Positions 2,558-37,528 of a stretch of 38,105 nt of DNA are shown piece by piece. Positions within the stretch are counted from its first letter, which is position 1. Every line of letters begins with the position of its first letter. The stretch is taken from NCBI GenBank assembly GCA_023266635.1, contig JAHFPU010000005.1:1-38105 (forward strand), in the 5' to 3' direction. Origin of the DNA: Sphingobium sp. (GTDB taxonomy: Bacteria > Pseudomonadota > Alphaproteobacteria > Sphingomonadales > Sphingomonadaceae). The notes beneath the pieces are model-generated. The model worked only from the letters and a program-made list of their open reading frames with translations. It had not been told where the DNA came from and ran no database searches. Made by a program: the position numbers and the translations under genes.

Positions 2558-3244
2558 ATGCCTGTAATCAGTTTTGCAAGTCCGAAGGGCGGCGTCGGGA
2601 AGAGCACCTCGGCGCTGGTGCTGGCCAGCGGCCTCAGCGTTGCGGGGGCGTCCGTCACCGTTGTCGATGGCGATCCGAACAGGACGCTCGAGACCTGGGC
2701 GAAAGCTACTGCAGAGCCCGGCTTCGACTGTCGGACGCTTCCATCGGACAATGCGATCATCGATCAGATCGAGGAGGCAGCGGCTTCAAGCCAGTTCGTG
2801 ATTGTCGATCTCGAGGGAACGGCCAACCTGGCGATGTCGCGCGCGATCTCGCGCACCGATCTCGTCATCATCCCGCTGCAGGCGTCTCCGGTAGACGCGC
2901 GGCAGGCGAGCAGGGCTATTAAGCTCGTCGTGGACGAGGGGAGGGCGCTGCGTCGCGAAATACCCTACCGGATGCTCTTTACGCGCGTGAACCCGGCGAT
3001 CGCGACCCGCGACGAGAAGGAGATAAGGTCACAGTTCAAGGGAGCAGGTATCCCAACCTTCGAGACAGCCCTCAACGACCGAGCCGGCTTTCGGGCGATG
3101 TTCACCCACTATCGCTCGCTGTGGAGCCTTGAAAACGAGCAGGCGACGGGCCTCGATAAGGCGAGGGCAAATGCCTCTGCGTTCGTGCAGGAGGTCATTC
3201 AGGAGATCAGGAAGCAGAAGGTCGCGGTGGAGGAAACGGCATGA
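2558..3244 (+). CDS. parA: ParA-family partition ATPase
   Basis: A 228-residue P-loop ATPase of the MinD/ParA class. The deviant Walker A motif KGGVGKST is at residues 10-17, and the Walker B-like segment FVIVDLEG is near residue 86. The short N-terminus has no helix-turn-helix, as in the small type Ib ParA proteins that do not themselves bind an operator. These ATPases move plasmid copies apart together with a centromere-binding partner. The next gene starts inside its stop codon (ATGA overlap at 3241-3244), which implies translational coupling and makes that gene the likely partner. Partition is firm as a family-level role; the cognate site is not identified. Confidence 0.92.
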   Translation: MPVISFASPKGGVGKSTSALVLASGLSVAGASVTVVDGDPNRTLETWAKATAEPGFDCRTLPSDNAIIDQIEEAAASSQFVIVDLEGTANLAMSRAISRTDLVIIPLQASPVDARQASRAIKLVVDEGRALRREIPYRMLFTRVNPAIATRDEKEIRSQFKGAGIPTFETALNDRAGFRAMFTHYRSLWSLENEQATGLDKARANASAFVQEVIQEIRKQKVAVEETA

Positions 3245-8811: not shown

Positions 8812-10083
8812 TCAGCTTTCGCCACTCCGCGCCTCGCGCATGCCGTGGAAGGTCTTGCCCAGGTTCAACTCGCCGGCAGCGGCCTTGGCCGTCATACCGC
8901 GCAGATACGCGCCGGGGGAGCGGACCTCACCGGTCAGCGACTTGGCGACGGTCGCGATCACAGCGGCCGCGGCGCCGCGCTGCCCCATCAACCGGCAGGC
9001 TTCGCGCCAGGCGTGTGAGCCGATTGCGTACTGCCCCGTCAGGCCCTCGGCGATGCTGACGAGCCGACCCCAAGCTCGCGGGCCAGGGTCGAGATCCCAG
9101 ATCAGCTCCGGCGCTGCCTTGGCCACAAACTTCGGGTCGACGCCGTGACGGTCCAGGTCGGCTTCCACGTTGCTCTGCGGGGCGAGAAGGGCGATGTCCC
9201 ACCCGCCACTACTTTTTCTCGCAAAGCCATTACTCGTAACTGCGTTAGCAGTTTTAAGTTGGGTTGTAGTTGTAGAGTGAACGAACGGACGTTCGCCCTT
9301 GGGTGAACTATCAACAGGGCAATCTGAAGCGCTTTCGACGTCCGGACTGGTATTTAGCGCTTCCAGCGCCCCATCAACAGTTGCCTGAAAAACGTCGACG
9401 CGCGACGTGACCTGGGCAAGGCACCGGATGAGCGTGTCCAGGTCGCGGCTGCCTTTCACATGGTCCAAAGCCATCCGCACGAGTTCGACTTCGCGAGCCG
9501 CGTCCACGCCCTGAATTTCGGCGTCGAGTACCGCGTTGGCGAGCGTGCGGGCACGGCGTCGTGCTGCCGATAGGGCGCGCTTGAGTCGCTCTATCTCGCG
9601 GTCCTCCGCGTATCCCTTGGCCGCAACCGCGTCGAACTCGGCCGCGCGGGTACCGAGCGGCCGCAGGTCGAAGCCGTAGCCCCAAAGGATGTCGCCTGCG
9701 GCATTGCGTTTGCCGCCGCGATGCCCGTTGGGGCTGTCGTGGGGTACCATCAGGCCGAACTCGATTGCCGCACGGATCATCTTCTGCACCTGGCGGACAG
9801 AGACGCCGAGCTTGCGCGAAAGCGTCTCGTTCCTCGGCCATACGAGCGGCACCCGGCCGGGAAGCCAGTCCTGCGGTTTGGAGTGGGGAATGAGGGCGTC
9901 CATAAGCGCCAGCACCGAAGGGGAGACCCCCATGTACGGGGCGGCGCATTTGAGCTTTCCGAGCAGCCGGGCCGGCGAAACCTTGTCCTGACCGGCATAG
10001 CCCTTCGCGATCCGACCGACGACGGCGTTGAATTGGTTGTAGCGGCGCATGCCGCCCGAACGCTTCGGGGTATAGGTTCCCAT
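8812..10083 (-). CDS. repC: Plasmid replication initiator RepC
   Basis: A 423-residue RepC protein, the initiator of alphaproteobacterial repABC-type replicons. The N-terminal domain (about 1-180) carries the typical run RLLGKLKCAAPYMGVSPSVL, WPRNETLSRKLGVSVRQVQK (a winged-helix DNA-binding segment) and GFDLRPLGTRAAEF. A helical, Arg-rich middle and a variable linker (about 245-290) lead to the C-terminal domain with WDLDPGPRAWGRLVSIAEGL, ACRLMGQRGAAAAVIATVAK and RSPGAYLRGMTAKAAAGELNL. No repA/repB partition genes of the repABC type adjoin it; instead an RPA initiator follows. ATG 10083 is supported by the family-like N-terminus. Confidence 0.95.
   Translation of the reverse strand: MGTYTPKRSGGMRRYNQFNAVVGRIAKGYAGQDKVSPARLLGKLKCAAPYMGVSPSVLALMDALIPHSKPQDWLPGRVPLVWPRNETLSRKLGVSVRQVQKMIRAAIEFGLMVPHDSPNGHRGGKRNAAGDILWGYGFDLRPLGTRAAEFDAVAAKGYAEDREIERLKRALSAARRRARTLANAVLDAEIQGVDAAREVELVRMALDHVKGSRDLDTLIRCLAQVTSRVDVFQATVDGALEALNTSPDVESASDCPVDSSPKGERPFVHSTTTTQLKTANAVTSNGFARKSSGGWDIALLAPQSNVEADLDRHGVDPKFVAKAAPELIWDLDPGPRAWGRLVSIAEGLTGQYAIGSHAWREACRLMGQRGAAAAVIATVAKSLTGEVRSPGAYLRGMTAKAAAGELNLGKTFHGMREARSGES
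9205..9340. other. AT-richer segment inside repC, candidate origin
   Basis: The stretch encoding the linker between the two RepC domains is visibly less GC-rich than the rest of the gene. It contains short palindromes: AACTGC-GTTA-GCAGTT at 9238-9253 and CGAACG-GA-CGTTCG at 9282-9295. In studied repABC plasmids the replication origin lies in such a segment within repC. The origin role here is inference from that precedent. Confidence 0.55.
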
Positions 10084-11749: not shown

Positions 11750-11923
11750 GTCCGCCAATCGGGACAGGCGTCCGTGACTGCGGACGCCTGTCCGTGGTGG
11801 CGGACGCCTGCCCGCAGCCTCGGACAGCGGTCCGCCGCTGCGGACGTTTTTTCATCGTAAATCGCGAGAAGTGAAAAAAGGGTTTGTCGGCGGCGATAGT
11901 TCCGTCCGGACCTGATTGTCCGC
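11750..11923. repeat. Cluster of GTCCG/CGGAC inverted repeats upstream of the pilin gene
   Basis: Eleven occurrences of GTCCG or its complement CGGAC lie in about 175 bases, in mixed orientation. The best structure is a perfect 13-bp inverted repeat, GGACAGGCGTCCG at 11762-11774 and CGGACGCCTGTCC at 11781-11793, with a 6-base loop. A second hairpin with a T-run is the terminator at 11830-11852. The rest of the 363-base gap 11629-11991 holds no gene. It separates the divergent minus-strand gene and the pilin gene, so operator, attenuator or transfer-origin roles are possible. Confidence 0.7.
11830..11852 (+). terminator. Intrinsic terminator or attenuator ahead of the pilin gene
   Basis: Stem GTCCGC (11830-11835) and GCGGAC (11840-11845) with a CGCT loop, followed by G and six T residues. 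It would stop plus-strand transcription about 140 bases before the pilin start, so it may act as an attenuator or insulate the transfer operon. Confidence 0.65.
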
Positions 11924-11991
11924 CAAATCCATCTCGGCTCACCTTCCGATTGGGCGCGGACCAACCGCGTCTCCATCGAAGGGAACTCAAC

Positions 11992-12312
11992 ATGCAGTCC
12001 GTGCTGAAAAAGAGCGGCCACATGGAGATGGCGGTCTTCGCCCTCGCCGTGCTGGCGTTGGCGCTCTTCTATTTCGCCGGCCCGGCCTTCGCCGGCGCCG
12101 ACACCACGTTCGACACAGCCCTGACGAAGTTCACGGACTTTCTCGAGGGCTCGGGCGGCAAGGTCATCACCGTGCTGTCGCTCGCAGGCGGCATCGTGGC
12201 GCTGGCCTCGGGCCGCTTCTCCATGGGCCAGATCGCGATCCCGGTCGGCGTCGGCGTCGGCGCCGGCACCGGCATTCCGATCGTCACCAGCACGGTGACG
12301 GCGACGATCTGA
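11992..12312 (+). CDS. Conjugative pilin (TraA/VirB2/TrbC type)
   Basis: A 106-residue small hydrophobic protein with the layout of type IV secretion pilins. A long signal or leader segment (about residues 12-34, ending GPAFA) is followed by the mature part: ADTTFDTALTKFTDFLEGSG, a transmembrane helix KVITVLSLAGGIVALASG, a short polar turn (RFSMGQ), and a second helix IAIPVGVGVGAGTG. Two transmembrane helices joined by a tight loop is the pilin topology. ATG 11992 follows GAAGGGAACTCAAC, a good ribosome-binding site. In transfer operons pilin genes are normally followed by small assembly genes; here a carbohydrate-related gene follows after 63 bases. Confidence 0.85.
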   Translation: MQSVLKKSGHMEMAVFALAVLALALFYFAGPAFAGADTTFDTALTKFTDFLEGSGGKVITVLSLAGGIVALASGRFSMGQIAIPVGVGVGAGTGIPIVTSTVTATI

Positions 12313-12375
12313 CGCAACCGTTCGGCCGGTCGGGGTGGCAGCTCCGGCCGTGCTCGCGGGGAGGGTGAGGGAGAC

Positions 12376-14583
12376 TTGGAATTGGCTCGTGCTTCTGCAG
12401 CAAGTGCAGCGACGATCAGCCTGCGCGCCGAGCTGGCAGCTGGCATGCGTCGGATTGCAGACATGCCCGTCGGTGTCCGATCACTGGAGGTGCTGGAGGG
12501 CCGGGATTCCATCTGGGCGATCATCAGGCGCCCTGACCGGGGTGGCCTGGCGCTGCGCATCGCTCATTGCTGGGGTGGCCCCACCAAGGTCAGGAAACGG
12601 CTGACGCGGGGAGGGGAGCTGCTGCGGCTGGAGATCACCAGCCCTATCGGCACGCAGGATGTGGTGCTGCGCTTCGATGATCTGGAGCTCGCCCTGATCC
12701 GGGTGACGACTACGCTCATCCCGACCATTCCGCTTCTCATCCCCTACTTCCCACGCGATCTGTATCCGCTTGGAGAAGGGGACGACCCGATGGCGGCAGA
12801 TGGCCAGGTAGAAGCGGGCCAACGCGGTCTGAACGGCGGTGTCTGCTACTTCCATCTCGACGAGCCGGCGTTTGGCAGCGTCCTCTATTTCCAGAACCTG
12901 ACGGCGCTCAACGGCTATTACGCCGCGACCGATACGAAGCCGGACGGCGCGGTCGGAGGCGAGTGGCCAGAGCTCGGCTATCTACCGCCGACACCTCCGC
13001 AAAGCGGCACGCCTCCGACCAATCCGTTGCCGGCGGGCAAGCCGGTGGTGATGTCCGATGCGATATTAGCGTTCCACGATGATGCCGCATGCGACGAGCA
13101 GGACATGGCACGGCGGTTCCTGCAGTTGCTCGGTGCCGCCTACCGGCAGCTTGAGCCGCCATCGACCCAATACCGGGATTGGGTCGAGCGGGCAGAGCGA
13201 ACGCTCCACGATCTGGAAACCGCGCCAGACACCCGGATCGAGCATTACGGCCACACCTACATCCATCCGTATACGGCAGCCGAGTATCCCGATGTCATGG
13301 TGCAGATGGCGATCATCGCGCCATTGCGGGATTATGCAGCATGGACGGGACGGGACTTGCCGTTCTGCAAGGCGCTGGAGGACGGCCTTGCCAAGTTCCA
13401 CGACAACAAACTGGAGACGATGCGGCGCTATCTGCCGAACGTCGGCAAGGACAAGGACAAGTTCGCCGTCGACAGCTGGTATCTTTACCACCCGCTGCTC
13501 AATCTCGGTCGCCTCGCGCTCGACGGCGACGCCCGCGCCAAGGGGCTCTTCCTTGGCTCGCTCGGCCTCGCGATCAAGGCGGCACAGCACTTCGCCTACG
13601 CCTGGCCGATCCAGTTCAAGGTCGACAGCCTCGACGTCATCGTCGAAGCGCGCAACGACGACGGGCTCGGCCAGACCGATGTCGGCGGCATCTACGCCTA
13701 TGTCATGGTCCAGGCCTATCAGCTGACCGGCAAGCCGACCTACCTTGAGGAAGCGCGAAAGGCGATCGATGCCGCACGCGAGATGCGCTTCGAACTCAAC
13801 TATCAGGCCAATCTGACCGCTTGGGGCGCCGCGGCCTGTATGCGGCTCTGGCGGATCACCGACGAGGAATATTACCTGCGGCAGAGCTATGTCTATCTCG
13901 CGAGCTTCTTCCACAACACGGTGATCTGGGAATCCGAGATCGGCCATGCCAGCAAGTACAAGGTCTTCCTCGGCGCGACCTGTCTCCACGATGCCCCTTA
14001 CATGGCGGCGTTCGAATGCTTCGACAGCTTCGCCGCGTTCGAGCGCTACCTGAAGGACAGCGGGCCCGATCTGGAACCTGCAGTGCGGCTGCTCGTCAGC
14101 GAATATTGCAAATATGCGCTCGACCGGGCCTGGTATTATTACCCCGATGCGCTGCCCGAGGACGCTCTAGCGCAGGAGGACATCCGCAATGGTCATATTG
14201 ATCGAAGCCTGTCGTTCCCGATCGAGGATCTCTACGTCGACGGACAACCGGCAGGCCAGGTCGGCCAGGAGATTTACGGTGCGGGAGCCGCGTTCGTCTT
14301 CGCAACGCGGGCGTTCCATCAGGTCAGCGGTGCACCCTTCCGTATCTTCTGCGATCATTTCCCGGTGACCAGCGAACGCACCTCGGAGCGATCGCTGAAG
14401 TTCGGCCTCGACGGCGGCCATGCTCGCAACGCGGTCTTCAGCCTGTCTCGGCTTTCGGGAGAGACCCTGCCCAGGTTCATCCTGCGCACCATAGCCGGCG
14501 ATACGCTGCGTCCGGTGACGAGGCGAGCCGATCTCATTGAATATCAGATACCTGCCAGTGGGGAGATCAGTCTTCACTGGTGA
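12376..14583 (+). CDS. Large uncharacterised probable (alpha/alpha)-toroid carbohydrate protein
   Basis: A 735-residue cytoplasmic protein without signal peptide. The proposed TTG start at 12376 has a GAGGGTGAGGGAG Shine-Dalgarno region; a later ATG at residue 24 is an alternative. Residues about 1-150 look like a beta-rich domain. Residues about 240-600 are successive amphipathic helices with aromatic and acidic residues (YHPLLNLGRLALDG, FAYAWPIQFKVDSLDV, DDGLGQTDVGGIYAYVMVQA, AWGAAACMRLWRITDEEYYL), as in alpha/alpha-barrel glycosidases and epimerases. The C-terminal ~90 residues again look beta-rich. The GH130-like and SDR genes behind it suggest glycan or polyol metabolism. I do not recognise a named family, and catalytic residues cannot be assigned by eye. 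Confidence 0.85.
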   Translation: MELARASAASAATISLRAELAAGMRRIADMPVGVRSLEVLEGRDSIWAIIRRPDRGGLALRIAHCWGGPTKVRKRLTRGGELLRLEITSPIGTQDVVLRFDDLELALIRVTTTLIPTIPLLIPYFPRDLYPLGEGDDPMAADGQVEAGQRGLNGGVCYFHLDEPAFGSVLYFQNLTALNGYYAATDTKPDGAVGGEWPELGYLPPTPPQSGTPPTNPLPAGKPVVMSDAILAFHDDAACDEQDMARRFLQLLGAAYRQLEPPSTQYRDWVERAERTLHDLETAPDTRIEHYGHTYIHPYTAAEYPDVMVQMAIIAPLRDYAAWTGRDLPFCKALEDGLAKFHDNKLETMRRYLPNVGKDKDKFAVDSWYLYHPLLNLGRLALDGDARAKGLFLGSLGLAIKAAQHFAYAWPIQFKVDSLDVIVEARNDDGLGQTDVGGIYAYVMVQAYQLTGKPTYLEEARKAIDAAREMRFELNYQANLTAWGAAACMRLWRITDEEYYLRQSYVYLASFFHNTVIWESEIGHASKYKVFLGATCLHDAPYMAAFECFDSFAAFERYLKDSGPDLEPAVRLLVSEYCKYALDRAWYYYPDALPEDALAQEDIRNGHIDRSLSFPIEDLYVDGQPAGQVGQEIYGAGAAFVFATRAFHQVSGAPFRIFCDHFPVTSERTSERSLKFGLDGGHARNAVFSLSRLSGETLPRFILRTIAGDTLRPVTRRADLIEYQIPASGEISLHW

Positions 14584-14634
14584 GGGAACCGACGCCCGCG
14601 CCGACGCTTCCTTGCTGATCAACGGGAGCCGATT

Positions 14635-15393
14635 ATGACCTCTGCCACAGACGCCCATACCGAGATGCCGACCCTTGCCGGACGGCGGGCGATCGTCACC
14701 GGCGGCACTACCGGGATCGGCCGCGCCATTGCCATTCTGCTCGCCAGTGAAGGCGTCGATGTCTTCATCTGTGGCCTTGAGGCCCAATATCTTGAGGACG
14801 CGCTCGCTGACATCCGCAACGTCGGCAAGGGCGATGGTGTGGTCATCGACCTGGCGGAGCCGGACAATGTGAAGGCAGTCTTCGATCAGGCCGTCGCTTA
14901 TCTCGGCGGGCTGGACATCGCCGTCGTGAACGCGGCAGTCGCGGCGGAAGGGTTGAGCGATACGAGCGAAACTGATTTGCGGCGGGCGATCGCCACGGAC
15001 TTCACCGCCTATCTGCTCAGCGCCCATGCCGCGGTCGACAAGTTGGGAGGCAACGGCGACATCGTGCTCATCGGGTCGATGAGCGCGCATGTGCTCGGCC
15101 CCAATTCGACGATCTACGCCGGCATCAAATATGGCATCCAAGGCTTCTCCGAGGCACTGCGCCGTGAGCTTGGACCCAAGGGTATCCGGGTCGCGCTCGT
15201 GGAGCCCGGCAAGACCGGCTCTGACATGCAGACGCCCGATATCCCGACCGACAAGCAGCGCGAGATGATCCGAGACGAGGAGATGCTGCGGGCAGAGGAT
15301 ATCGCCGTCGGCGTTCACTACCTGCTGACGCAGCCCAATCGTACTGTCGTCCAGCAGCTCACCATCGCGCCGCGGATGCAGTCGCAGGAATGA
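14635..15393 (+). CDS. Short-chain dehydrogenase/reductase
   Basis: A 252-residue classical SDR oxidoreductase acting on NAD(P)(H). The cofactor loop TGGTTGIG is at residues 22-29, the VVNAAV segment (NNAG equivalent) at about 97-102, the catalytic Ser at 148 in IGSMSA, and Tyr161 and Lys165 in YAGIK. The C-terminal REL-GPKGIRVALVEPG is typical. Substrate cannot be read from sequence; neighbours suggest a sugar or sugar alcohol, for example oxidation to a keto-sugar before cleavage. It starts 52 bases after the toroid protein, and its stop overlaps the GH130-like start (ATGA at 15390), so the three genes look like one operon. Confidence 0.93.
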   Translation: MTSATDAHTEMPTLAGRRAIVTGGTTGIGRAIAILLASEGVDVFICGLEAQYLEDALADIRNVGKGDGVVIDLAEPDNVKAVFDQAVAYLGGLDIAVVNAAVAAEGLSDTSETDLRRAIATDFTAYLLSAHAAVDKLGGNGDIVLIGSMSAHVLGPNSTIYAGIKYGIQGFSEALRRELGPKGIRVALVEPGKTGSDMQTPDIPTDKQREMIRDEEMLRAEDIAVGVHYLLTQPNRTVVQQLTIAPRMQSQE

Positions 15394-16535
15394 GCTACGC
15401 AGTCGACAAGCTGGTCCTCGTTCCCGACGACATTGATCTCTCCCGCTCGCCGCTGGCCGGCCACCTCGACGCAGAGACCTATGTGCTTGGCGTGTTCAAT
15501 CCGGGCCTGACGCGGTTACCCAACGGCAATCTCATGATGATGGTGCGGGTTGCCGAGGCGCTGCGCAGACCCGTCTTCGACGGCAATGTCCACTCGATCC
15601 GCTGGGAGGAGGCAGGCGAGAACGGCCGTTATGTGCTCGATGCATGGCCACTCGAACATGTTGACACGTCTGACCCGCGCAAATTCCTGCTGCGCGGCGG
15701 GGGCTGGCGCGTGATGGCGCTGACCTCGCTGTCTTGGCTGCTGCCGGTCGAACTCAGCCCGGACGGCCTCGAGCGCGTTGCGGTCCATTATGATCGCGCC
15801 ATCGCGCCGCAAGGAAGCTGGCAATGCTACGGCGTCGAAGACGCACGGATCAGCCAGGTCGACGGGCGCTACTTGATGACCACCTGCTCGGTCAGCCCCG
15901 AGCGTCACTCGACCACGCTCTACGTCTCCGACGACGGCTACGACTGGCAGTTCGAGGATATTCTACTCGACCATCAGAATAAGGACATGGTGATCTTCGA
16001 AGGCCGGGTCGACGGCGCCTATTGGGCGCAGACTCGTCCCTTGGGCGACCATTACTTCGCCTATCCGCCGGGCAGCGAATGGCGCGCCGGACCCTCGATC
16101 AAGTTTGCGACGTCACCCGATGCCCTCCATTGGAAGCCGCATCTGACGGCCAGCATCCGCCCGCACAGCGCGACCGTGGCGACGGCCCGAATGGGCGGCG
16201 GAACACCCCCGGTACTCACCGATCGAGGCTGGCTGACGCTGTGGCATGGCGTGGAGCCGAAGGAGATCGTCGGCATCTATCGAACCTACTGGTCGATTTT
16301 GGATCGCGACGATCCCGGCAAGATCATCGCCACGGAGCATGCGCCGTTGCTGGAGGCCAATCCAAAGCTGACCGCCGACCTCGAGCATCAGATGTACGTG
16401 CGAGACGTCGTGTTCACAACAGGCATCGCCGATCATGGCGAGGTGTATGTTGTGGCTTCAGGCGAGGCTGATCTGGCTTGCCGTATCACGCACATCCCGA
16501 AGTCGGCTTTTCAGGAGCAGCACTGCAGTGAATGA
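15390..16535 (+). CDS. GH130-like glycoside phosphorylase/hydrolase
   Basis: A 381-residue cytoplasmic five-bladed beta-propeller enzyme of the GH130 type, a family of beta-mannoside phosphorylases and beta-mannosidases. Visible family features: FNPG at 36-39, VRVAE at 52-56, GVEDAR at 148-153, GGGTPP at 269-274, and WHGVEP at 285-290 followed by a YRTYWSILDRDDPGKII segment and a C-terminal VRDVVFTTG. Whether it is a phosphorylase or hydrolase needs the phosphate-binding residues checked against structures. No signal peptide is present, so the substrate must be imported or made inside the cell. The start overlaps the SDR stop, implying coupled translation. The stop lies 48 bases before the IS. 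Confidence 0.85.
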   Translation: MSYAVDKLVLVPDDIDLSRSPLAGHLDAETYVLGVFNPGLTRLPNGNLMMMVRVAEALRRPVFDGNVHSIRWEEAGENGRYVLDAWPLEHVDTSDPRKFLLRGGGWRVMALTSLSWLLPVELSPDGLERVAVHYDRAIAPQGSWQCYGVEDARISQVDGRYLMTTCSVSPERHSTTLYVSDDGYDWQFEDILLDHQNKDMVIFEGRVDGAYWAQTRPLGDHYFAYPPGSEWRAGPSIKFATSPDALHWKPHLTASIRPHSATVATARMGGGTPPVLTDRGWLTLWHGVEPKEIVGIYRTYWSILDRDDPGKIIATEHAPLLEANPKLTADLEHQMYVRDVVFTTGIADHGEVYVVASGEADLACRITHIPKSAFQEQHCSE

Positions 16536-16599
16536 TCATCACACGCAGGGGCCAATGGGGAAGGGCTTTCTGGCGCCTGCTGCTAGGGTTCAGACTCAT

Positions 16600-16935
16600 T
16601 CAGAGCCAGAACGCCAAAGCGGTTGCCAGCGCGACGCCTGACAGGAAGTTGGCCGCGAGCTTGTCGTATCGGGTGGCGACGCGGCGGAAATCCTTAAGGC
16701 GGCAGAAGGCGTTCTCGATGAGGTGGCGACCGCGATAGCGGTCCTTGTCATAGCGGATGATGCGCTTGCGGTTGCGCCGACCTGGGATGACGGGGACAGC
16801 CCCTGCATCGCGCAACGAGCGCCGCAACCGGTCGGCGTCGTAGCCCTTGTCGCCCAGCAGGTAGCGCATGTGCCCGGCGCGCTCGAGAAGCGCGGGTGCG
16901 GCCTTGATGTCGCTGACGTTGCCGGGCGTCAGCAT
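16600..16935 (-). CDS. IS5-family transposase, C-terminal frame (orfB)
   Basis: The second transposase frame. From its first ATG it reads MLTPGNVSDIKAAPALLERA, then YLLGDKGYDAD with the second catalytic Asp, then GRRNRKRIIRYDKDRYRGRH and LIENAFCRLKDFRRVATRYD with the catalytic Glu. Similarity begins upstream of this ATG, at the point where orfA loses it, so it is probably made as an orfA-orfB fusion. The C-terminus ends 16 bases inside the left terminal repeat region, as is usual for this group. Confidence 0.8.
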   Translation of the reverse strand: MLTPGNVSDIKAAPALLERAGHMRYLLGDKGYDADRLRRSLRDAGAVPVIPGRRNRKRIIRYDKDRYRGRHLIENAFCRLKDFRRVATRYDKLAANFLSGVALATALAFWL

Positions 16936-17372
16936 CAGCGCATACGGGCGGCCGATGACGTCGGTGAGCGCGTGTACCTTGGTGGTCCAGCCACCGCGCG
17001 AACGGCCGATCGCTTGGCTCGATCGCCCCCTTTTGCGCCGAACGCCGCGCGCTGTGCCTTGACGTAGGTGCTGTCGATCGCGGTGCTTTTCGTGACCGCG
17101 CCGGTATCCACCAAGGCATCGAGCAGCTTCAGCCAGAAGCCCCTGTGCGACCAGCGGTTGAAGCGGTTATAGATCGTCGTCGATGGACCATAATCGGCCG
17201 GGCAGTCGCACCACCGGCAACCGACCTTCAGCACGTGCAGGATGCCCGAGATTACCCGACGATCATCCACCCGTCGGGCACCGGGCTGGTTCTTTGGCAA
17301 ATGCGGTTCGATCGCCGCCCACGCCTCGTCCGAAAGCCAGAACAGCGCCATCCCGCACCTCTTTTGATCCAC
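16935..17372 (-). CDS. IS5-family transposase, N-terminal frame (orfA)
   Basis: The first frame of the transposase. WLSDEAWAAIEPHLPKNQPG, GCRWCDCPADYGPSTTIYNR and AIDSTYVKAQRAAFGAKGGD are characteristic, the last carrying the first catalytic Asp (IDST). Met at residue 8 (MALFWLSDEAW, 17351) is an alternative start. After AFGAKGG the correct protein continues in the -1 frame (SSQAIGRSRGGWTTKVHALT), so residues after about 115 of this frame are not transposase. The shift lies at the AAAAGGGGG run near 17026-17034. The frame can be restored by programmed -1 frameshifting or by one missing G. Confidence 0.8.
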   Translation of the reverse strand: MDQKRCGMALFWLSDEAWAAIEPHLPKNQPGARRVDDRRVISGILHVLKVGCRWCDCPADYGPSTTIYNRFNRWSHRGFWLKLLDALVDTGAVTKSTAIDSTYVKAQRAAFGAKGGDRAKRSAVRAVAGPPRYTRSPTSSAARMR

Positions 17373-17435
17373 ACCGCCTGTGAATCACGAAAGCCGCACG
17401 CCTTCAAGCAGATGATTGGGTTTGGACCCTAACGG

Positions 17436-18691: not shown

Positions 18692-19450
18692 CTAGGTAAT
18701 AGCCAAAGCGGTCTGGTATCCCTTTGCCTCGGGTCGACTTGGCGATGCGTTACCTCCTGGACGAAAGCCCAGGGTGGAAACTTGCTGCATAAGGCGCTGT
18801 GGATCTGCGATGGCCAGCATTCCGCCGGTGCATGATACCAATCCGTCGGCGCGGAGTCGCTGCAGGGTCCGATTGACGTGCACTGATGTAAGCCCCAGCG
18901 CATCGGCGAGGTCGGTCTGGGTCAGGGGCAATTCCATGGAGCCGTTGCGTACAAGCCCAATCTCCTGACCTCGTTGCCAGAGGCTTAGCAGGAGCGAGCC
19001 AAGTCGATCGTAGGCATCGCCGCGTGCAACGCTTGTGAAGACTGCGCGGACCCGTTCTTCCTCTTTGAACTGAATCGACCTCAGCGCTTGGCAAATCGGC
19101 AGGTGCTGCGATGCAAGTGCGTTGAGGGCGCCATGCTCGACCCGTAAGGTTTCTCCGCTTGTCAGTGCTTCCACGGAGTAGCTGAGCGGTAGCTCGGTCT
19201 GCGAATTTAGATGAAGGATATCGCCTGGAAGGTAGATCGCGCTGATACTGCGATCACCATTGCGATGCAGAACCTGAGCCACCGCATAGCCAGATTCAAG
19301 GACCAGGGCATGACGGGGTGCATCACCGACCGACGCGAGGGAAGCTCTGCGTTGGTGAGAAATAGCCCGGTATGGCGTTCCTTCCAGTGCAGCTCTTGCA
19401 TGCTCGTCGAGCGAGGCATGTTTGCCAAAGCGGTTCACCAGCAGATTCAT
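18692..19450 (-). CDS. Crp/Fnr-family transcription regulator without Fe-S cysteines
   Basis: A 252-residue regulator from the preferred ATG at 19450 (MNLLVNRFGKH); an in-frame start at 19483 would add 11 residues. The N-terminal part is a cyclic-nucleotide-binding-type beta roll (ALVLESGYAVAQVL, RSISAIYLPGDILHL). A long dimer helix follows, then the winged helix ELPLTQTDLADALGLTSVHV with the recognition helix NRTLQRLRADGLV. Only two cysteines are visible and none in an N-terminal cluster, so it is not an oxygen-sensing FNR of the [4Fe-4S] type. Its effector is unknown. Position on the same element as a FixLJ/cyd island makes a role in the low-oxygen response conceivable, as FixK does elsewhere, but this is inference. 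Confidence 0.88.
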   Translation of the reverse strand: MNLLVNRFGKHASLDEHARAALEGTPYRAISHQRRASLASVGDAPRHALVLESGYAVAQVLHRNGDRSISAIYLPGDILHLNSQTELPLSYSVEALTSGETLRVEHGALNALASQHLPICQALRSIQFKEEERVRAVFTSVARGDAYDRLGSLLLSLWQRGQEIGLVRNGSMELPLTQTDLADALGLTSVHVNRTLQRLRADGLVSCTGGMLAIADPQRLMQQVSTLGFRPGGNASPSRPEAKGYQTALAIT

Positions 19451-19799
19451 CGGTATACTTCCCGCTAGATAACGTTTCGCCACTGTATCGGTTCATACGC
19501 TGTATGCGATTGGCATCGATAGAGGCGAGCACCATTGTCATGGCCGTATGGTAAACGCGGAAGCAAAAGCCCCCGAGGCTGGCTATAGGGCGTTGAAAAG
19601 CCGCCTGCAGAACGAATTAAGTGTCACGTCCACCTAGGTTGCTGAGTGACAGGGGCGTTCGAGTGATTTATACTGTGAAAAGCAAAGCAGAGGGGAGTTT
19701 CGCGCCAAGCTTTTGCCCAAGGCGCCATTGCTTGTCTTAACCCCTGTTCAATCGTGCATTTTTGCATATTGGCCTTGATAGGATGTTACTCGGCGAAGA
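19451..19799. other. Intergenic region without a convincing gene
   Basis: These 349 bases separate the Crp/Fnr start from the stop of the next minus-strand gene. They are less GC-rich than the surroundings and presumably carry the Crp/Fnr promoter. A pair of arms TGTCAC / GTGACA lies at about 19621-19651 with an 18-base spacer, too far apart for a normal Crp-type site. I see no RNA gene. Confidence 0.4.
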
Positions 19800-31426: not shown

Positions 31427-32563
31427 TCAGTAGAAGTCGGGACCGGTCATCACAGCGTCGGTAGTGACCCGGCCGAACATCACGCGGTACGCCCAGGCGG
31501 TGTAGGCAAGGACGATCGGCAGGAAGATGATCGTGACGACCAGCATGATGCCGAGCGTCTTCTCACTGGAGGACGCGTTCCAAACTGTAAGGCTTGAATG
31601 CGCATCAGTGCTCGACGGCAGGATGAAGGGAAACATCGCGCATCCCACCGTTGCAATGATGCCGGTCGCGCCGACGCTGGACCCGCCGAAGGCTAGCGCC
31701 CCGTGCCGCCGATAGATGCCGATCAGCGCCAGACCCGTACCTGCGAAGCCCAAGACAGGGGCGGCCAGCATCCATGGATGCAGTCCGTAGTTGCGAAGCC
31801 AGCCACCAACCACCGCCTGGGACGTCGTATGCAGCGGGTTGGACGGTGCCGCTGTCTCAACGGCACCGACAATCTGCCAACCTGGCATCTGCCACACGAG
31901 CAGTCCCCCGACGGCAAATAGTATCAAGACGAGCGTTCCTGCCGCAAAGCCGTACGCGGTGGCCCGATCATGGATGGGGCCGCGCTCGACCTTGATCGCC
32001 AACCAGGCTGCGCCATGCAGCACCAGCATGGCGACCGACACCACGCCTGCAAGCAGGGCGAAGGGGCTGAAGAGCGCGAAAAAGCTGCCCTCATAGAAGA
32101 CACGCAAGTCGCTATCGAGGCGGAAGGGCGCGCCGGTCAGTACGTTTCCGACGGCTACGCCGAAGACGAGCGCAGGCACGATCCCGCCGACGAACAGCGC
32201 CCAGTCCCAGCGGGTACGCCAAGACGGATCGGGGCGCTTCGACCGGTATTTGAAACCCACCGGCCGCAGGATTAGCGCCGCCAGCACCACGAACATCGCG
32301 AGGTAAAATCCCGAGAAGCTGGCGGCATAGACGAACGGCCAAGCTGCGAAGATCGCACCACCTCCGAGGATGAACCACACTTGGTTGCCTTCCCAAGTTG
32401 GGCCGACGGTGTTGATGACCGTGCGGCGTTCGGCATCGTTTCTCGCGACAAACGGCAGCAGCGTGGCGACGCCAAGATCGAAGCCGTCGGTCAGCGCAAA
32501 CCCTATCAGCAGCACACCCAGCAGCGCCCACCAGATCAGGCGCAGGATTTCGTAATCGAACAT
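31427..32563 (-). CDS. cydB: Cytochrome bd quinol oxidase subunit II
   Basis: A 378-residue integral membrane protein with eight or nine predicted helices. Characteristic segments: LIWWALLGVLLIGFALTDGF, DLGVATLLPF, RRTVINTVGPTWEGNQVWFI, GGAIFAAWPFVYAASFSGFY and the final segment with SSTDAHSSLTVWNASSSEKT. Length matches the classical subunit. CydB pairs with CydA and has no heme itself. It follows cydA by 12 bases and precedes cydX, forming a cydABX operon. Confidence 0.97.
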   Translation of the reverse strand: MFDYEILRLIWWALLGVLLIGFALTDGFDLGVATLLPFVARNDAERRTVINTVGPTWEGNQVWFILGGGAIFAAWPFVYAASFSGFYLAMFVVLAALILRPVGFKYRSKRPDPSWRTRWDWALFVGGIVPALVFGVAVGNVLTGAPFRLDSDLRVFYEGSFFALFSPFALLAGVVSVAMLVLHGAAWLAIKVERGPIHDRATAYGFAAGTLVLILFAVGGLLVWQMPGWQIVGAVETAAPSNPLHTTSQAVVGGWLRNYGLHPWMLAAPVLGFAGTGLALIGIYRRHGALAFGGSSVGATGIIATVGCAMFPFILPSSTDAHSSLTVWNASSSEKTLGIMLVVTIIFLPIVLAYTAWAYRVMFGRVTTDAVMTGPDFY

Positions 32564-32575
32564 GGTCGGCCTCCT

Positions 32576-34168
32576 TCAGGCGGCAAGCGGCAGGGATGGC
32601 AGCGGCGCGCCCACCGGGGCTGGGGCCTGCGCCTCGTCCTCGACCGGCCCGTGACGGATCGCAGCGAGGATCAGCCGCACCTCGATGACGGCCAGTACGC
32701 CGTAGAGCAGGGTGAAACCGGCAATGGTCGTCAGGATCGCCGCGGGCGTCAGGCTGGACGAGGCAAGGAAGGTAGGCAGCACGCCGTCGATTGCCCAGGG
32801 CTGGCGACCCAGTTCGGCAACGACCCAGCCTAGTTCGATAGCGATCCAGGGCAACGGAATCGCCAAGACCGCTGACTTCAGGAACCAGCGCACATCCATG
32901 TGCATCCGCAGCGAGCACAGCACAAATGCGGTGGCGAACAGCGCGATCATCGCAAAACCGATCGCGGCCATGATCCGGAACGACCAGAACATTAGCGGGA
33001 CGCTCGGCACCGTGTCCCACGCCGCCTGGCTGATCTGCTTCGGCGTGGCAGTCGCGGGATCAGCAACGTAGCGCTTGAGCAGTAATCCGTAGCCGAGGTC
33101 GCGCTTGTGCGCCTCGAAGGCCGCGCGGGCCGGCATGTCGTTAGCGTTCGTCTTCAGTCGCTGGACCGCGGCATAGGCGATGCGCCCAGAAGCAATCCGC
33201 TCCTGCGCCTGCAGCACCAGTTCGGACATACCGGTCACGGTGCCATCGAGGCTGCGCGTCGCAATCAGGCCGAGCACCCAAGGAACCTGCACCTCGTAAC
33301 GGGTTTCATGGGTCGCCATGCTAGGCACGCCGAACAGCGTCAGTCCGGCAGGAGCGGGCTCTGTGTGCCAGGCGGCCTCAATGGCGGCGAGCTTCATCTT
33401 CTGGTTGTCTGTAAGGGCATATCCGCTCTCATCGCCGAGGACGACGACGGACAAGGAAGACGCAAGGCCGAAAGCGGCGGCAACCGTCATCGAGCGACGC
33501 GCGACCGGAACCCAGCGGCCCTTGAGCAGCCAGAAGGCAGAGATGCCAAGTACGACCACCGAGGCGGTAACGTAGCCCGCGCTAACGGTGTGGACAAACT
33601 TGGCCTGCGCGACAGGGTTGAACAGCACCGCGCCGAAGTCTGTGACCTCCATCCGCATAGTGTCAGGGTTGAAGCGCGCGCCGACCGGATTCTGCATCCA
33701 GCCATTGGCGATGAGGATCCACAGGGCGGACAAGTTGGTGCCGAGCGCCACCATGAAGGTGACGATCAAATGCCCCAGCTTCGATAGCCGATCCCAGCCG
33801 AAGAACATGAGACCGACAAAGGTCGCTTCGAGGAAAAAGGCCATCAGCCCCTCGATTGCGAGCGGGGCGCCGAAGATGTCGCCGACGTAATGAGAAAAGT
33901 AGGACCAGTTGGTCCCGAACTGGAACTCCATCGTCAGCCCCGTGGCAACCCCGAGCACGAAGTTGATGCCAAAAATCTTGCCCCAGAAACGTGTCACCTG
34001 CCGCCAGACCGGGCGTCCCGTCATGACGTAGACGGATTCCATGATGACGAGCATGAAGCTGAGCCCAAGCGTCAGCGGCACGAACAGGAAATGATAAAGC
34101 GCAGTTAGCGCGAATTGTAGCCGCGACAGGTCGATAACGGTCGGGTCCACTGGCGGGGTCTCCTCCAT
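32576..34168 (-). CDS. cydA: Cytochrome bd quinol oxidase subunit I
   Basis: A 530-residue heme-bearing subunit that oxidises ubiquinol and reduces oxygen. ATG 34168 (MEETPPVDPTVIDLSRLQFA) is the start; the longer frame is an antisense shadow of cydD. The heme axial His26 sits in LTALYHFLFVPLTLG; ETRYEVQVPW marks the segment after the quinol (Q) loop, which contains GDESGYALTDNQK and AIEAAWHTEPAPA with the Lys/Glu of the quinol site. The length (close to the 522 of the E. coli protein) places it in the long-Q-loop type. It is the first gene of the operon and is divergent from cydD. Confidence 0.97.
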   Translation of the reverse strand: MEETPPVDPTVIDLSRLQFALTALYHFLFVPLTLGLSFMLVIMESVYVMTGRPVWRQVTRFWGKIFGINFVLGVATGLTMEFQFGTNWSYFSHYVGDIFGAPLAIEGLMAFFLEATFVGLMFFGWDRLSKLGHLIVTFMVALGTNLSALWILIANGWMQNPVGARFNPDTMRMEVTDFGAVLFNPVAQAKFVHTVSAGYVTASVVVLGISAFWLLKGRWVPVARRSMTVAAAFGLASSLSVVVLGDESGYALTDNQKMKLAAIEAAWHTEPAPAGLTLFGVPSMATHETRYEVQVPWVLGLIATRSLDGTVTGMSELVLQAQERIASGRIAYAAVQRLKTNANDMPARAAFEAHKRDLGYGLLLKRYVADPATATPKQISQAAWDTVPSVPLMFWSFRIMAAIGFAMIALFATAFVLCSLRMHMDVRWFLKSAVLAIPLPWIAIELGWVVAELGRQPWAIDGVLPTFLASSSLTPAAILTTIAGFTLLYGVLAVIEVRLILAAIRHGPVEDEAQAPAPVGAPLPSLPLAA

Positions 34169-34224
34169 AATCCGCGAACATTGCGGGTATGGCTGCCTCA
34201 TCGGCGTCGGTGCGAACGTCGGGT

Positions 34225-34242
34225 ATACGGGAAGTCCCGTAT
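34225..34242. promoter_or_regulatory. Perfect palindrome between divergent cydA and cydD
   Basis: ATACGGGA-AG-TCCCGTAT, two 8-base arms around a 2-base centre, lies in the 109-base gap between the divergent cydA and cydD starts, 57 bases from cydA and 36 from cydD. It probably binds a dimeric regulator that controls both operons. It does not look like an FNR/FixK box (TTGAT-N4-ATCAA). A half-like TCCCGTA recurs at 29890-29896 upstream of the channel gene. Confidence 0.65.
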
Positions 34243-34277
34243 TCGGCGGTGCGGTCCCGCCGATTAGGCCGACGATC

Positions 34278-35921
34278 ATGTCCACCATCGCTAACCGCCC
34301 CACTGCTACCCGCCTGCTCGCCGATCTCGCGCCCCGGCGGGGCCGGGCGGAGGCGCTGCTGCTACTTGATACGGTGGCGGCGATCGGTTTTGCCGGCGGC
34401 CTTGCCGGCGCGATCACGCATGCGGACCGCGTCGCTACGCTGCTGCCCTGGCTCTGCATCGCGGGGGCCGCGGCGATCGCCCGCGGAGGACTGATCGCCG
34501 CACTCGCCGACGCCGGCGCGGCGGCAGGACGGCAGATGACGATGACGGCCCGCCAGCGCGTCGTCTCCGCCACGTTCACCATGATGCCGGGCGGACGCCG
34601 TACGTCAGCCGACATCGTCACCGCGGCGGTGGACGAGGTCGATGCGCTGGACGGCTATGCCGCGCGTTTCCTGCCGGCGCGACGCGCCGCCGCGATCGCG
34701 CCGCTGATCGTTCTCGGCGTGATCGCGACGGCAAGCTGGGTCAGCGCCTTGATCCTGCTCGCGACATTGCTGCCCTTCGTCGCCGCCATGATCCTGGCGG
34801 GGGGTGCCGCGGCGGACCGGTCGCGACGCCAGTTCATGGCCTTGTCGCGGCTGTCCGCACTGTTCGCCGATCGCGTGCGGGCGTTGCCCGTCGTATTGGC
34901 CTTTCGCGCCGAGCAGCGCGAGGCGGACCATATCGGTCGTGCTGCCGAAGATCTAGCCACCCGCACCATGGGCGTCCTGCGCGTGGCGTTCGTCTCGTCC
35001 GGCGCGCTGGAGTTCTTCGCGGCGCTGTCTGTTGCGCTGGTCGCCGTCTATTGCGGCTTTGCTCTGTTGGGGTTGCTGCCGTTCGGGTCGCTCGAGACGC
35101 TTGATCTGGGCGACGCCTTCTTCGTCCTTGCCCTGTCGCCCGAATTCTACGCGCCGATGCGAAGGTTGGCCGCTGCTTATCACGAGCGGCAGGCGGCGCA
35201 GACGGCCGCGGAACGGCTGGCTCCGCTGTTGAGCGATAGCGCCATCGCGCCGGTGCAGCTCCCTAGGGCAGCCGTCGCCCCAAGCGTCGCCTTTCAGGCA
35301 GTGACGATCCGTTATCAGGACCGCGACGAGGCTGCGGTGATCAACCTCTCGCTGACGATCGAGTCCGGGGAAACGCTGGCGCTGGTCGGTCCATCGGGCA
35401 GCGGCAAGACCAGCCTGCTTCATAGTCTGCTTGGTCTTGCTCCAGTCTCGGAAGGGACGATCCTGATCGACGGAGCGCCCTTGCCCCTCGGCGGCAGCGT
35501 CGCTGCGGTGGCAGCATGGGCCGGACAGAACCCGCTGATCCCGCCGGGAACTATCGGTCAGGCGATTGCGCTGGGGGATCGCACGGCGGATGCAGCCGGA
35601 ATCGCTGCTGCGGCCGATGCCGCAGGCCTCGGCCCTGCCCTCGCGCGCCGGCCGGAAGGCCTGGAGGCGATGATCGATGCGCGCGGGGGCGGTCTATCCG
35701 GCGGCGAGCGCCGGCGCATCGGGATTGCGCGTGCGCTGTTGAAGGACGCACCCCTGCTTCTGCTCGATGAACCCACGGCGCACCTCGATGCGGCAGCGGA
35801 GGAAGAGATAATCGCGTTACTGGCCCGTGCCTGCACCGGTCGAACCGTCATCATCGCGACGCATTCGGCCAGACTGGCGGCGATCGCCGACCGTGTCGTC
35901 ATTCTGGGAGGGCATGCGTGA
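34278..35921 (+). CDS. cydD: Cytochrome bd assembly ABC exporter subunit CydD
   Basis: A 547-residue half-transporter: membrane domain (about 1-310, six helices) and ATPase domain (about 335-547). Walker A is GPSGSGKT, the signature LSGGERRRIGIARAL and Walker B LLLLDEPTAHLD; the switch His is in ATHSARL. CydDC exports cysteine and glutathione to the periplasm and is required to assemble cytochrome bd with its hemes. The ATG at 34278 is the first good start after the divergent promoter region. Assignment as cydD rather than a general exporter is from order (first of the pair) and the cydAB neighbourhood. Its stop overlaps the cydC start. Confidence 0.92.
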   Translation: MSTIANRPTATRLLADLAPRRGRAEALLLLDTVAAIGFAGGLAGAITHADRVATLLPWLCIAGAAAIARGGLIAALADAGAAAGRQMTMTARQRVVSATFTMMPGGRRTSADIVTAAVDEVDALDGYAARFLPARRAAAIAPLIVLGVIATASWVSALILLATLLPFVAAMILAGGAAADRSRRQFMALSRLSALFADRVRALPVVLAFRAEQREADHIGRAAEDLATRTMGVLRVAFVSSGALEFFAALSVALVAVYCGFALLGLLPFGSLETLDLGDAFFVLALSPEFYAPMRRLAAAYHERQAAQTAAERLAPLLSDSAIAPVQLPRAAVAPSVAFQAVTIRYQDRDEAAVINLSLTIESGETLALVGPSGSGKTSLLHSLLGLAPVSEGTILIDGAPLPLGGSVAAVAAWAGQNPLIPPGTIGQAIALGDRTADAAGIAAAADAAGLGPALARRPEGLEAMIDARGGGLSGGERRRIGIARALLKDAPLLLLDEPTAHLDAAAEEEIIALLARACTGRTVIIATHSARLAAIADRVVILGGHA

Positions 35922-37528
35922 ACGCCTTCGAAAGCTTGCTGCACGATGAGATCCGCAAGGAAGCCGCAACGCTGCGACGTGCCGCGCTGCTCGCAGCAGC
36001 GGTCGCGGGTGCGACGATCGTGCTGCTCGGCCTGTCCGGCTGGTTCATCACCGCAGCGGGCGCCGCGGGTCTCGCCGGCGCGGCGACGGCGCGCGTCTTC
36101 AACTACATGCTTCCGAGCGCTGGCATCCGGCTGCTGGCGATCGTGCGCACAGGCGCGCGCTATGGCGAGCGACTGGCGAGCCATGCCGCCGCCTTTGCCG
36201 TGCTTGCGCGGGTCAGGCCGGCGCTGTTCCGCTCCATCGCCGCAGCACCGGTGCGGCAGGCGCTTGCGTTGAGCACCGGCAGCGCGACGGCGCGGCTGGT
36301 GCAGGACGTCGGCGCGATCGAAGGCGCGGTCGTGCGCCGGTCCGCAACATGGGCAGCGGTGGCGGCGGTGGCGACCGGCGTCGCCCTGACGGCGGCCGCC
36401 GGACCGATCGTCGCTGGAACGCTGGCCGCGATGACGGGCCTGACGCTGGCGGTAACGTTCCGTCACCTCGCCGTCGGGCGCCAGCACGGCGTCGCGCTCC
36501 AGCGGATGCAGGGCGAGATGCGCGAACTGCTGGCCACCCAATTGTCCGCAGCCCCCGAACTTCGCTGCTATGCGATGCAGGACACGACGATCGATCAGAT
36601 CGCACGTCTGGATGCGCGACTGGCCGCAACGCGACGGGATCAGGCACGCGTTGCAGCCCGTGCCGAGGCCATCGCCGCGGGCATGGCAGGATTGGGCGCG
36701 GTGGCGGCGTTCGTCGTCGCATTGCCCGCTGGCGTGCCGCTTGCCGCGTTGTCCGCGTTGACGGCGGTGACCACGATCGACGGATTGGCGCCGCTGCTGC
36801 GCGACCGCGCGGCTCGCGGCGCGACGATCGAGGCGACGGAACGGCTTTCGGACCTGTTTCGACCGGTGGCTGCTGCCGTCACGATTGGGCCGGCCTGTAA
36901 CCCGACGCTGGCGCTTCCTGGGCTCTCGCTGACCGCGCCACCGGACGCGCGCATCGCGATCACCGGCGTATCGGGTGTCGGCAAGACGACGCTGCTGGAA
37001 ACGCTGCTGGGCCTGCGTACAGACGGGACGGACGGCATCTTCGTCGGGGGGCGACCCCTTGTCGGCATGGACCCAGCCGTGTTGCGCGGCATGTTCGCCT
37101 GGTGCCCTCAGGATGCGCAATTGCTGGCGGGGTCGATCCGCGACAATCTGCTCCTGGCGCGGCCGGACGCCCACGATGCCGAACTGTGGCAGGCGCTGGA
37201 CGATGCCTGTCTTGGACACCGTATTCGCCTGTTGCCCGAGGGACTGGATAGCTGGGTCGGCGAGGACGGTTCCCGGCTGTCCGGGGGCGAGCGGCGGCGA
37301 CTATGCCTGGCCCGTGCCTACAACGCGCGCGCGCCTTGGCTGCTGCTCGACGAACCGACGGAGGCGCTCGATGGGCAGACCGAACAGCAAGTAATCCAAC
37401 GACTGAACACCCGCCTGATGCGTACGCAACAAGGGCTGATCGTGGTCACGCATCGGGCCGCTCTACTGAAGATGTGCACCCAGCACGTCATGCTATCCAC
37501 CAATGCGCTCCGTGATCTGGCGGCTTGA
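35918..37528 (+). CDS. cydC: Cytochrome bd assembly ABC exporter subunit CydC
   Basis: A 536-residue half-transporter starting at GTG 35918, which overlaps the cydD TGA by 4 bases. The membrane domain opens with a helix RAALLAAAVAGATIVLLGLS and SGWFITAAGAAGLAGA, typical of CydC. The ATPase domain has Walker A GVSGVGKTTL, signature LSGGERRRLCLARAY and Walker B WLLLDEPTEALD; HRAALL marks the switch His region. It forms a heterodimer with CydD. The stop lies 4 bases from the end of the convergent oxidoreductase gene, so the two transcripts probably terminate against each other. Confidence 0.92.
   Translation: MNAFESLLHDEIRKEAATLRRAALLAAAVAGATIVLLGLSGWFITAAGAAGLAGAATARVFNYMLPSAGIRLLAIVRTGARYGERLASHAAAFAVLARVRPALFRSIAAAPVRQALALSTGSATARLVQDVGAIEGAVVRRSATWAAVAAVATGVALTAAAGPIVAGTLAAMTGLTLAVTFRHLAVGRQHGVALQRMQGEMRELLATQLSAAPELRCYAMQDTTIDQIARLDARLAATRRDQARVAARAEAIAAGMAGLGAVAAFVVALPAGVPLAALSALTAVTTIDGLAPLLRDRAARGATIEATERLSDLFRPVAAAVTIGPACNPTLALPGLSLTAPPDARIAITGVSGVGKTTLLETLLGLRTDGTDGIFVGGRPLVGMDPAVLRGMFAWCPQDAQLLAGSIRDNLLLARPDAHDAELWQALDDACLGHRIRLLPEGLDSWVGEDGSRLSGGERRRLCLARAYNARAPWLLLDEPTEALDGQTEQQVIQRLNTRLMRTQQGLIVVTHRAALLKMCTQHVMLSTNALRDLAA

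Follow-up and report, generated by a model that had tools for sequence, protein, structure and literature searches.

A probably plasmid-borne T735-SDR-GH130 operon of Sphingobium as a possible stress-linked module of mannoside processing

The window analyzed here is the whole of a 38,105-nucleotide stretch of Sphingobium sp. DNA (GCA_023266635.1, contig JAHFPU010000005.1, positions 1 to 38,105 of the forward strand), and the subject of this work is an operon of three plus-strand genes within it, T735-SDR-GH130. The first gene encodes a 735-residue protein that we call T735 (12376-14583, TTG start; delimited by its open reading frame (ORF), homology and an AlphaFold2 model), the second an oxidoreductase of the short-chain dehydrogenase/reductase (SDR) family (252 residues, 14635-15393), and the third a protein of glycoside hydrolase family 130 (GH130; 381 residues, 15390-16535). 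We propose that the operon represents, on a plasmid, a stress-response module of sphingomonads that would process mannose-containing saccharides in the cytosol (no signal peptide was seen by eye), combining phosphorolysis by GH130, oxidation by the SDR, and T735 as a new glycoside-active family. We give this reading a probability of roughly 0.45, and it is offered as tentative. If correct, it would imply a new carbohydrate-active enzyme family and a stress-linked mannoside metabolism in a large group of environmental bacteria.

A sequence-only reading of this DNA had described three tightly linked genes. All three ORFs were recovered at the positions given above, and the SDR stop codon overlaps the GH130 start codon in an ATGA (15390-15393), although the gap between T735 and SDR is 51 bases, not 52 as had been counted. 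The TTG start of T735 is preceded by GAGGGAG, which resembles a ribosome-binding site; in many homologues, an ATG precedes this position by a few codons. Recurrence of the three genes in other genomes, which the sequence-only reading had named as a check, was indeed found: the order T735-SDR-GH130 is present, for example, in loci L003, L013, L015, L021 and L034.

We calculated the frequencies of gene partners in 54 distinct T735 loci, after removal of duplicates (L102, L103, L117, L118, L119 and L121), with identity and 5 kb limits that we set ourselves. The counts were taken from tblastn, because, in GC-rich DNA such as this, our simple ORF caller assigns some ORFs to the wrong strand. An SDR lies within 5 kb of T735 in 32 of the 54 loci (subfamily SDR1 in 19, SDR2 in 13), GH130 in 22, and both in 17. 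A fresh test set consisted of 16 T735 regions outside the discovery loci (4 of 20 were dropped, since they overlapped loci that had supplied the stress gene panel described below), and the controls were 20 regions, each located 300 kb before a T735 on the same contig. GH130 was found nearby in 4 of the 16 new regions versus 1 of 20 controls; the control match has 28% identity, so that close GH130 was present in none of the 20 (Fisher p 0.03 for close GH130). SDRs of any identity were found in 13 of 16 versus 2 of 20 (Fisher p 2e-5). Thus, the linkage of T735, SDR and GH130 exceeds chance. GH130 adjoins T735 in distant branches, as well, namely in Asticcacaulis (L004, L005) and in Spirosoma (L006), where a plasmid carries T735 with 33% identity, an adjoining GH130 with 59%, and an SDR with 45% elsewhere on the same plasmid. 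The pairing of SDR and GH130 recurs in its own right: of 49 distinct GH130 sequences, 31 have an SDR at a distance of 1 kb or less.

Another arrangement, which we define as the type II operon, has the order T735, SDR2, zinc dehydrogenase, 7-bladed lactonase and MFS transporter, without GH130. The zinc dehydrogenase was detected in 10 of the 54 loci (5 of them also with the lactonase), the lactonase in 5 and the MFS transporter in 8, some of these transporters being in type I loci. When operon types were placed on the T735 tree, the GH130 type required 9 changes, compared to a shuffled mean of 17.1, and the zinc dehydrogenase type required 5; in both cases none of 500 shuffles was as low. Judged by their gene content, type II operons may convert a product to an acid by way of a lactone. 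No partners accompany T735 more persistently than dehydrogenases, consistent with an oxidation step. To this extent the oxidise-then-cleave route of the sequence-only reading is supported, whereas oxidation before cleavage, formation of a keto sugar, and cutting by T735 are hypothetical.

The identities of the two nameable proteins agree with what had been read from the letters. The SDR matches Pfam PF00106 with 131 bits and shows the features of a classical SDR, that is, TGGTTGIG at position 22 (pattern TGxxxGxG) and S148, Y161 and K165, the last three being present in 23 of 23 SDR1 matches of at least 45% identity, duplicate loci included. The GH130 protein matches PF04041 with 70.7 bits (cut-off 26), and among solved proteins the nearest to it in sequence is the beta-1,2-mannobiose phosphorylase Lin0857, followed by the mannoside synthase Uhgb_MS. 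In an alignment of 41 GH130 rows, from which short rows and rows with stops were excluded, the -1 subsite residues N37, D151 and D361, as well as K198, R53, R216, R267 and H286, each show at least 97% conservation; the roles of the -1 subsite residues follow excerpts of PMC4264767 and PMC4599007. Of the basic residues, which are candidates for phosphate binding, R216, R267 and H286 have basic counterparts in the alignment with Lin0857, Uhgb_MS and Teth514_1789, and R53 in the first two only, while K198 aligns with the lysine of the NKD motif in all three. According to the excerpted text of PMC4599007, Lys199 of BT3780, retained in Teth514_1788 and Teth514_1789, is a likely beta-1,2 determinant; K198, equated with it through that paper and not by aligning BT3780, probably marks specificity for beta-1,2-mannosides. 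The GH130 protein thus carries beta-1,2-mannoside signatures. Compared to Lin0857, Teth514_1789 and Uhgb_MS, with which it shares PF04041 and the residues above, the window-type GH130 has low identity, an insertion of about 10 residues after R216, and often an SDR next to it. Listeria GH130 homologues on records of the plasmid collection are 27-28% identical to the protein of the window.

T735 itself had been described as lacking a nameable family, and this description survived the database searches. No Pfam model reached its cut-off in a search at E up to 1 (the best, below cut-off, was C5-epim_C with E 0.025), with no GH76, AGE-type or GH65/GH94/GH15-type model among the matches, and NCBIfam gave nothing at E up to 0.1. 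A phage or defence gene was also considered and rejected, as there was no match in PHROGs (E 0.1) or PADLOC (E 0.01). Four plasmid records with a near-full T735 annotate the gene as hypothetical. Neither a match to a characterized family with an unrelated function nor an absence of the trio elsewhere, the two outcomes that would have spoken against the sequence-only reading, was encountered.

The AlphaFold2 model, built from 26 sequences (mean pLDDT 83.8, pTM 0.88), agrees with the alpha/alpha-toroid with beta-rich ends that had been guessed: a beta-sandwich at about 25-234, linker helices at 241-282, an (alpha/alpha)6 toroid at about 265-650, and a C-terminal beta domain at about 655-734. This predicted domain order is that of several glycoside hydrolases and phosphorylases, including kojibiose, maltose and cellobiose phosphorylases and glucodextranase, which we take to belong to GH65, GH94 and GH15. 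Structure comparisons were made with VIA-align on the list returned by Foldseek and cover only the families listed there. The N-domain folded alone gives Z 10-12.7 over about 200 residues to the N-domains of GH97, kojibiose and cellobiose phosphorylases, glucodextranase and the cyclic glucan synthase CGS. The predicted layout of T735 is that of sugar enzymes, but function does not follow from layout. An alignment of 52 rows contains 78 invariant residues, among them the acids D128, D268, D343, D366, D435, E459, D539, E547, E617, D618 and E632. D539 and D618 lie in low-confidence loops (524-539 and 618-630), a pattern that could arise where an active site is covered by few aligned sequences.

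Evidence for a link to stress comes from the neighborhood and from promoter motifs. A core panel of stress genes was represented in 6 of the 16 new T735 regions versus none of the 20 same-contig controls (p 0.004). A wide panel gave 13 of 16 versus 0 of 20; it should be noted that this count is inflated, as the zinc alcohol dehydrogenase in the wide panel also catches the dehydrogenase of type II operons, and we therefore rely on the core panel. The general stress regulon of EcfG in Sphingomonas melonis Fr1, as far as given in an excerpt of PMC6599016, includes Ku, catalases, PRC-barrel proteins, a zinc alcohol dehydrogenase and an adjacent glycosyltransferase-glycosidase pair (genes 1750 and 1751, possible counterparts of the GT4 or GH130 genes seen here); gene kinds of this regulon also occur near T735.

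Of 53 T735 loci, 18 have the EcfG-like motif GGAAC-N15-17-NNTT in the 300 bases preceding the gene, compared to 7 of 229 control genes (p 1e-9) and 39 of 564 neighboring genes; controls with altered spacing or scrambled motifs gave 1 to 5 of 53, and GGAAC alone 26 of 53 versus 53 of 229. These p values overstate the case because the T735 loci are related. Three versions of the motif were tried against random windows, followed by two versions, GGAAC alone and four controls against gene-upstream windows, the latter drawn from our simple ORF calls. Such promoters have a flexible -10 element, according to an excerpt of PMC7083833. In the window, the candidate is GGAAC-N16-GCTT, with an imperfect -10, on the plus strand at 14585-14609, that is, in the T735-SDR gap, 50 bases upstream of the SDR; the relaxed motif precedes 6 of 19 T735-linked SDR1 genes, the window copy included. 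Stress control is supported, as judged from motifs and neighbors, for many T735 loci, and is weak for the window copy. A Crp/Fnr-family regulator is encoded at 18692-19483 of the window; several of the other T735 loci have similar genes nearby.

The saccharide might originate from a wider mannose system. Five relatives that lack T735 (L077-L081) have the GH130 beside a GT4 glycosyltransferase with an extra C-terminal domain, plus a second GH130. The C-terminal domain, which has no Pfam name (L077 9980-12328 and relatives), matches the toroid protein 7tem; a relationship of T735 to this domain was considered and rejected (hhalign probability below 1%). The GT4-toroid fusion is present in 32 of 33 T735 genomes (30 as a single ORF, 2 in two pieces). 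In the genus of the window, the full fusion was found in 27 of 94 genomes, among them each of the 3 further genomes that have a full T735 (p 0.02), and close GH130 copies in 8 of 36 other genomes; among T735 genomes, close GH130 (71-83% best identity) was found in 29 of 30, with Sphingorhabdus contaminans as the exception. The conjugative Sphingobium plasmid pSES220 (L085 1094-15311) carries groES-groEL, two GDP-mannose genes, the GT4-toroid fusion, GH130b, phosphomannomutase, a response regulator and an HWE kinase, and its GT4-toroid/GH130b pair is 50% and 57% identical to the pair of the relatives without T735. By its gene content, this cassette is a putative mobile mannan-type pathway. The distribution of the GT4-toroid/GH130b genes, together with the GDP-mannose genes, makes a mannan or mannoside derived from GDP-mannose a possible substrate source. 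Elsewhere, on a Sphingomonas parapaucimobilis plasmid (L083 9992-13697), a GH130 with 60% identity, an alpha-amylase-family enzyme and a GT4 are arranged in a single run.

Under the reading that we prefer, the GH130 would act as a beta-1,2-mannoside phosphorylase, converting mannoside and phosphate to alpha-mannose-1-phosphate; its residues suggest such a step, in the direction of phosphorolysis or of synthesis. The SDR, given its catalytic residues, would be a sugar or polyol oxidoreductase working on the same pool by NAD(P)-dependent oxidation or reduction, and T735, judged by its fold and partners, may act on the same saccharide or on its oxidized form. T735 would then be the founding example of an unnamed (alpha/alpha)6 carbohydrate-active family, with hydrolase or lyase as the first choice and epimerase as the second. 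The saccharide might come from the GT4-toroid/GH130b pathway, which is found in nearly all searched genomes of one sphingomonad genus, that of genome G084. A more far-reaching version, which we consider doubtful, would give sphingomonads a stress-induced, mannogen-like cycle of beta-mannan: the GT4-toroid enzyme builds mannan from GDP-mannose, the two kinds of GH130 extend and phosphorolyse it, and T735-SDR opens an oxidative route in or out, T735 being a new hydrolase, lyase or transglycosylase on native or oxidized mannosides. If true, this cycle would parallel the reserve mannan of Leishmania, where, according to an excerpt of PMC8950772, beta-1,2-mannan is turned over by enzymes with the GH130 fold (GT108); sphingomonads instead have the GT4-toroid fusion, two kinds of GH130, SDR and T735. 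Titles and abstract openings in the open-access literature included no paper on the T735-SDR-GH130 operon, on Sphingomonas GH130, or on bacterial mannogen.

Several observations weigh against the proposed module. Neither SDR nor GH130 lies within 5 kb in 17 of the 54 T735 loci, some of them clipped by contig ends, and 15 of the 49 GH130 sequences are labelled as an SDR-GH130 pair without T735 nearby, although many of these loci have flanks of only 1.5 kb. The zinc dehydrogenase and GH130 occur together in none of the 54 loci, and the substrate may therefore differ between the operon types. At the level of genomes, of the 201 searched in the G084 genus, 196 have a GH130 of this kind and 197 the C-terminal domain of the GT4-toroid; because both are near universal there, and most named T735 genomes are Sphingomonas, the co-occurrences of 29/30 and 32/33 are mostly background, and it is the adjacency counts that carry the argument. 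The GT4-toroid fusion was not found in the window's own assembly, which is 78% complete. With regard to structure, the periplasmic domain of YidC also reaches Z of about 10 to the T735 N-domain, for which Foldseek gave nothing at E <0.001 (best E 0.046), and no catalytic residue could be pinpointed, the conserved loops having pLDDT <50.

The stress evidence has weak points, as well. Behind the core panel result are Mn catalase (5), DUF892 (2) and KatE (1), some of these matches having 32-34% identity; Ku, LigD and Hsp20, which are present in discovery loci, were found in 0 of 16 new T735 regions. One of the spacing controls is slightly raised (5 of 53 versus 5 of 229, p 0.02). The strict EcfG motif (CGTT, of the GGAAC-N16-CGTT type) was discarded as a general rule, being found in only 2 of 53 loci (0.15 expected), and the window contains no strict site. 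The relaxed motif is not enriched before the GT4-toroid (1 of 15) or GH130b (1 of 18) genes; thus, the mannan pathway itself bears no sign of an EcfG-like promoter.

One alternative concerns the direction of the pathway. If GH130 were a mannoside synthase, the operon would make a beta-mannosyl compatible solute or reserve under stress, and SDR and T735 would supply or trim the acceptor. Consistent with this are the name of the second-best solved relative, Uhgb_MS, the reversibility of phosphorylases (excerpt of PMC4264767), the promoter motif and stress neighbors of T735, and the association of the GT4-toroid/GH130b pair with GDP-mannose genes and groEL on pSES220. Conversely, the MFS transporter and lactonase of type II operons look catabolic, and the lack of motif enrichment before GT4-toroid genes points the same way, so we regard synthesis as rather unlikely. 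A similarly low probability attaches to T735 as an enzyme of an oxidative pathway for another glycoside, in which the dehydrogenases would be the true partners and GH130 a frequent but separate neighbor from the same stress islands. The SDR is the commonest partner and survives the swap between subfamilies, the zinc dehydrogenase, lactonase and MFS transporter recur in the numbers given above, and the SDR-GH130 pair exists alone; against a separate GH130, its adjacency extends to the distant Asticcacaulis and Spirosoma branches and is clustered on the T735 tree.

Two further alternatives concern the chemistry of T735 and follow from its toroid. The VIA-align scores of 18-20 to cellobiose 2-epimerases and 19 to D-mannose isomerase (compared to 21.4 for Dfg5 and about 18 for unsaturated glucuronyl hydrolase), together with the weak C5-epimerase match in Pfam, would fit a sugar epimerase or isomerase of the AGE type. 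Such an enzyme would turn mannose into glucose units beside GH130, as does the cellobiose 2-epimerase that is known to pair with GH130 in a mannan pathway (PMC4264767, in the part available). AGE-type models are absent among the Pfam matches, and the 52 rows contain a single invariant histidine, H372, as read from the sequence alignment. AGE enzymes use a pair of histidines, and the large N- and C-domains of T735 are not a known feature of that group; we consider this identity improbable. The best toroid match of the predicted model is, in fact, to GH76 (Z 24.6, 321 residues, 3.9 A), with a sub-threshold sequence match of E 0.028, which could indicate a GH76-like alpha-mannan enzyme. However, in that sub-threshold alignment the GH76 Asp pair, which is mutated in the matched chain, falls on A478-N479, so that the catalytic pair is apparently absent in T735, and no GH76 model was among the Pfam matches; this identity is very improbable.

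Regardless of which chemistry applies, T735 represents an enzyme-like family that is conserved and has no name; in one sphingomonad genus, about one third of the genomes searched contain it, and the genes around it suggest a substrate class and a regulator that can be tested. Peptide patterns recovered 31 T735 loci from 30 genomes, which, to judge by their names, are sphingomonads almost throughout, one bearing the name Microvirga. Among 72,556 plasmid records, T735 is present in 4 (one of Novosphingobium, two of Asticcacaulis, one of Spirosoma). At the level of the phylum, 3 of 398 genomes have it, and at that of the class 2 of 385, all within one family; full-length copies occur in 4 of 94 genomes of the window's genus, the window's own among them, with fragments in 3 more. 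By contrast, 70 of the 201 genomes of the G084 genus have a match, some of them only fragments; T735 is common in this genus and rare elsewhere. Viral contigs gave 19 pattern matches, with no relative among them. Remnants of T735 (G084:C1:1005241-1005679, G031:C29:3603-3824, G685:C28 and G582:C4) are a sign of gene loss.

The window copy is likely to reside on a plasmid, given a RepC replication protein (8812-10083, profile match above its cut-off) and a ParA-type ATPase (2558-3244, profile match below its cut-off). Upstream DNA matches the F-type tra region of Sphingobium RAC03 up to 12367, including, by homology, a TrbC/VirB2 (TraA-type) pilin gene on the plus strand (11884-12312); traL would be expected a few bases further on from the tra gene order. 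The DNA shared with Sphingomonas Leaf412 (L007) covers 12366-15432, from T735 through the SDR into the very beginning of GH130, and is preceded there by different sequence. The left edge of the cassette can therefore be placed at 12366-12368 and, with tra DNA upstream of it, the native T735 promoter is probably absent in the window. Directly after the operon, an IS5-family element on the minus strand (16581-17431) is 99.9% identical to a stretch on a plasmid of Sphingomonas sp. AAP5. Among the remaining genes of the window, an open frame clipped by the window start (2-1291) matches oleate hydratase from model position 186, and 31427-37528 encodes cytochrome bd oxidase subunit II and two ABC half-transporters, possibly CydDC.

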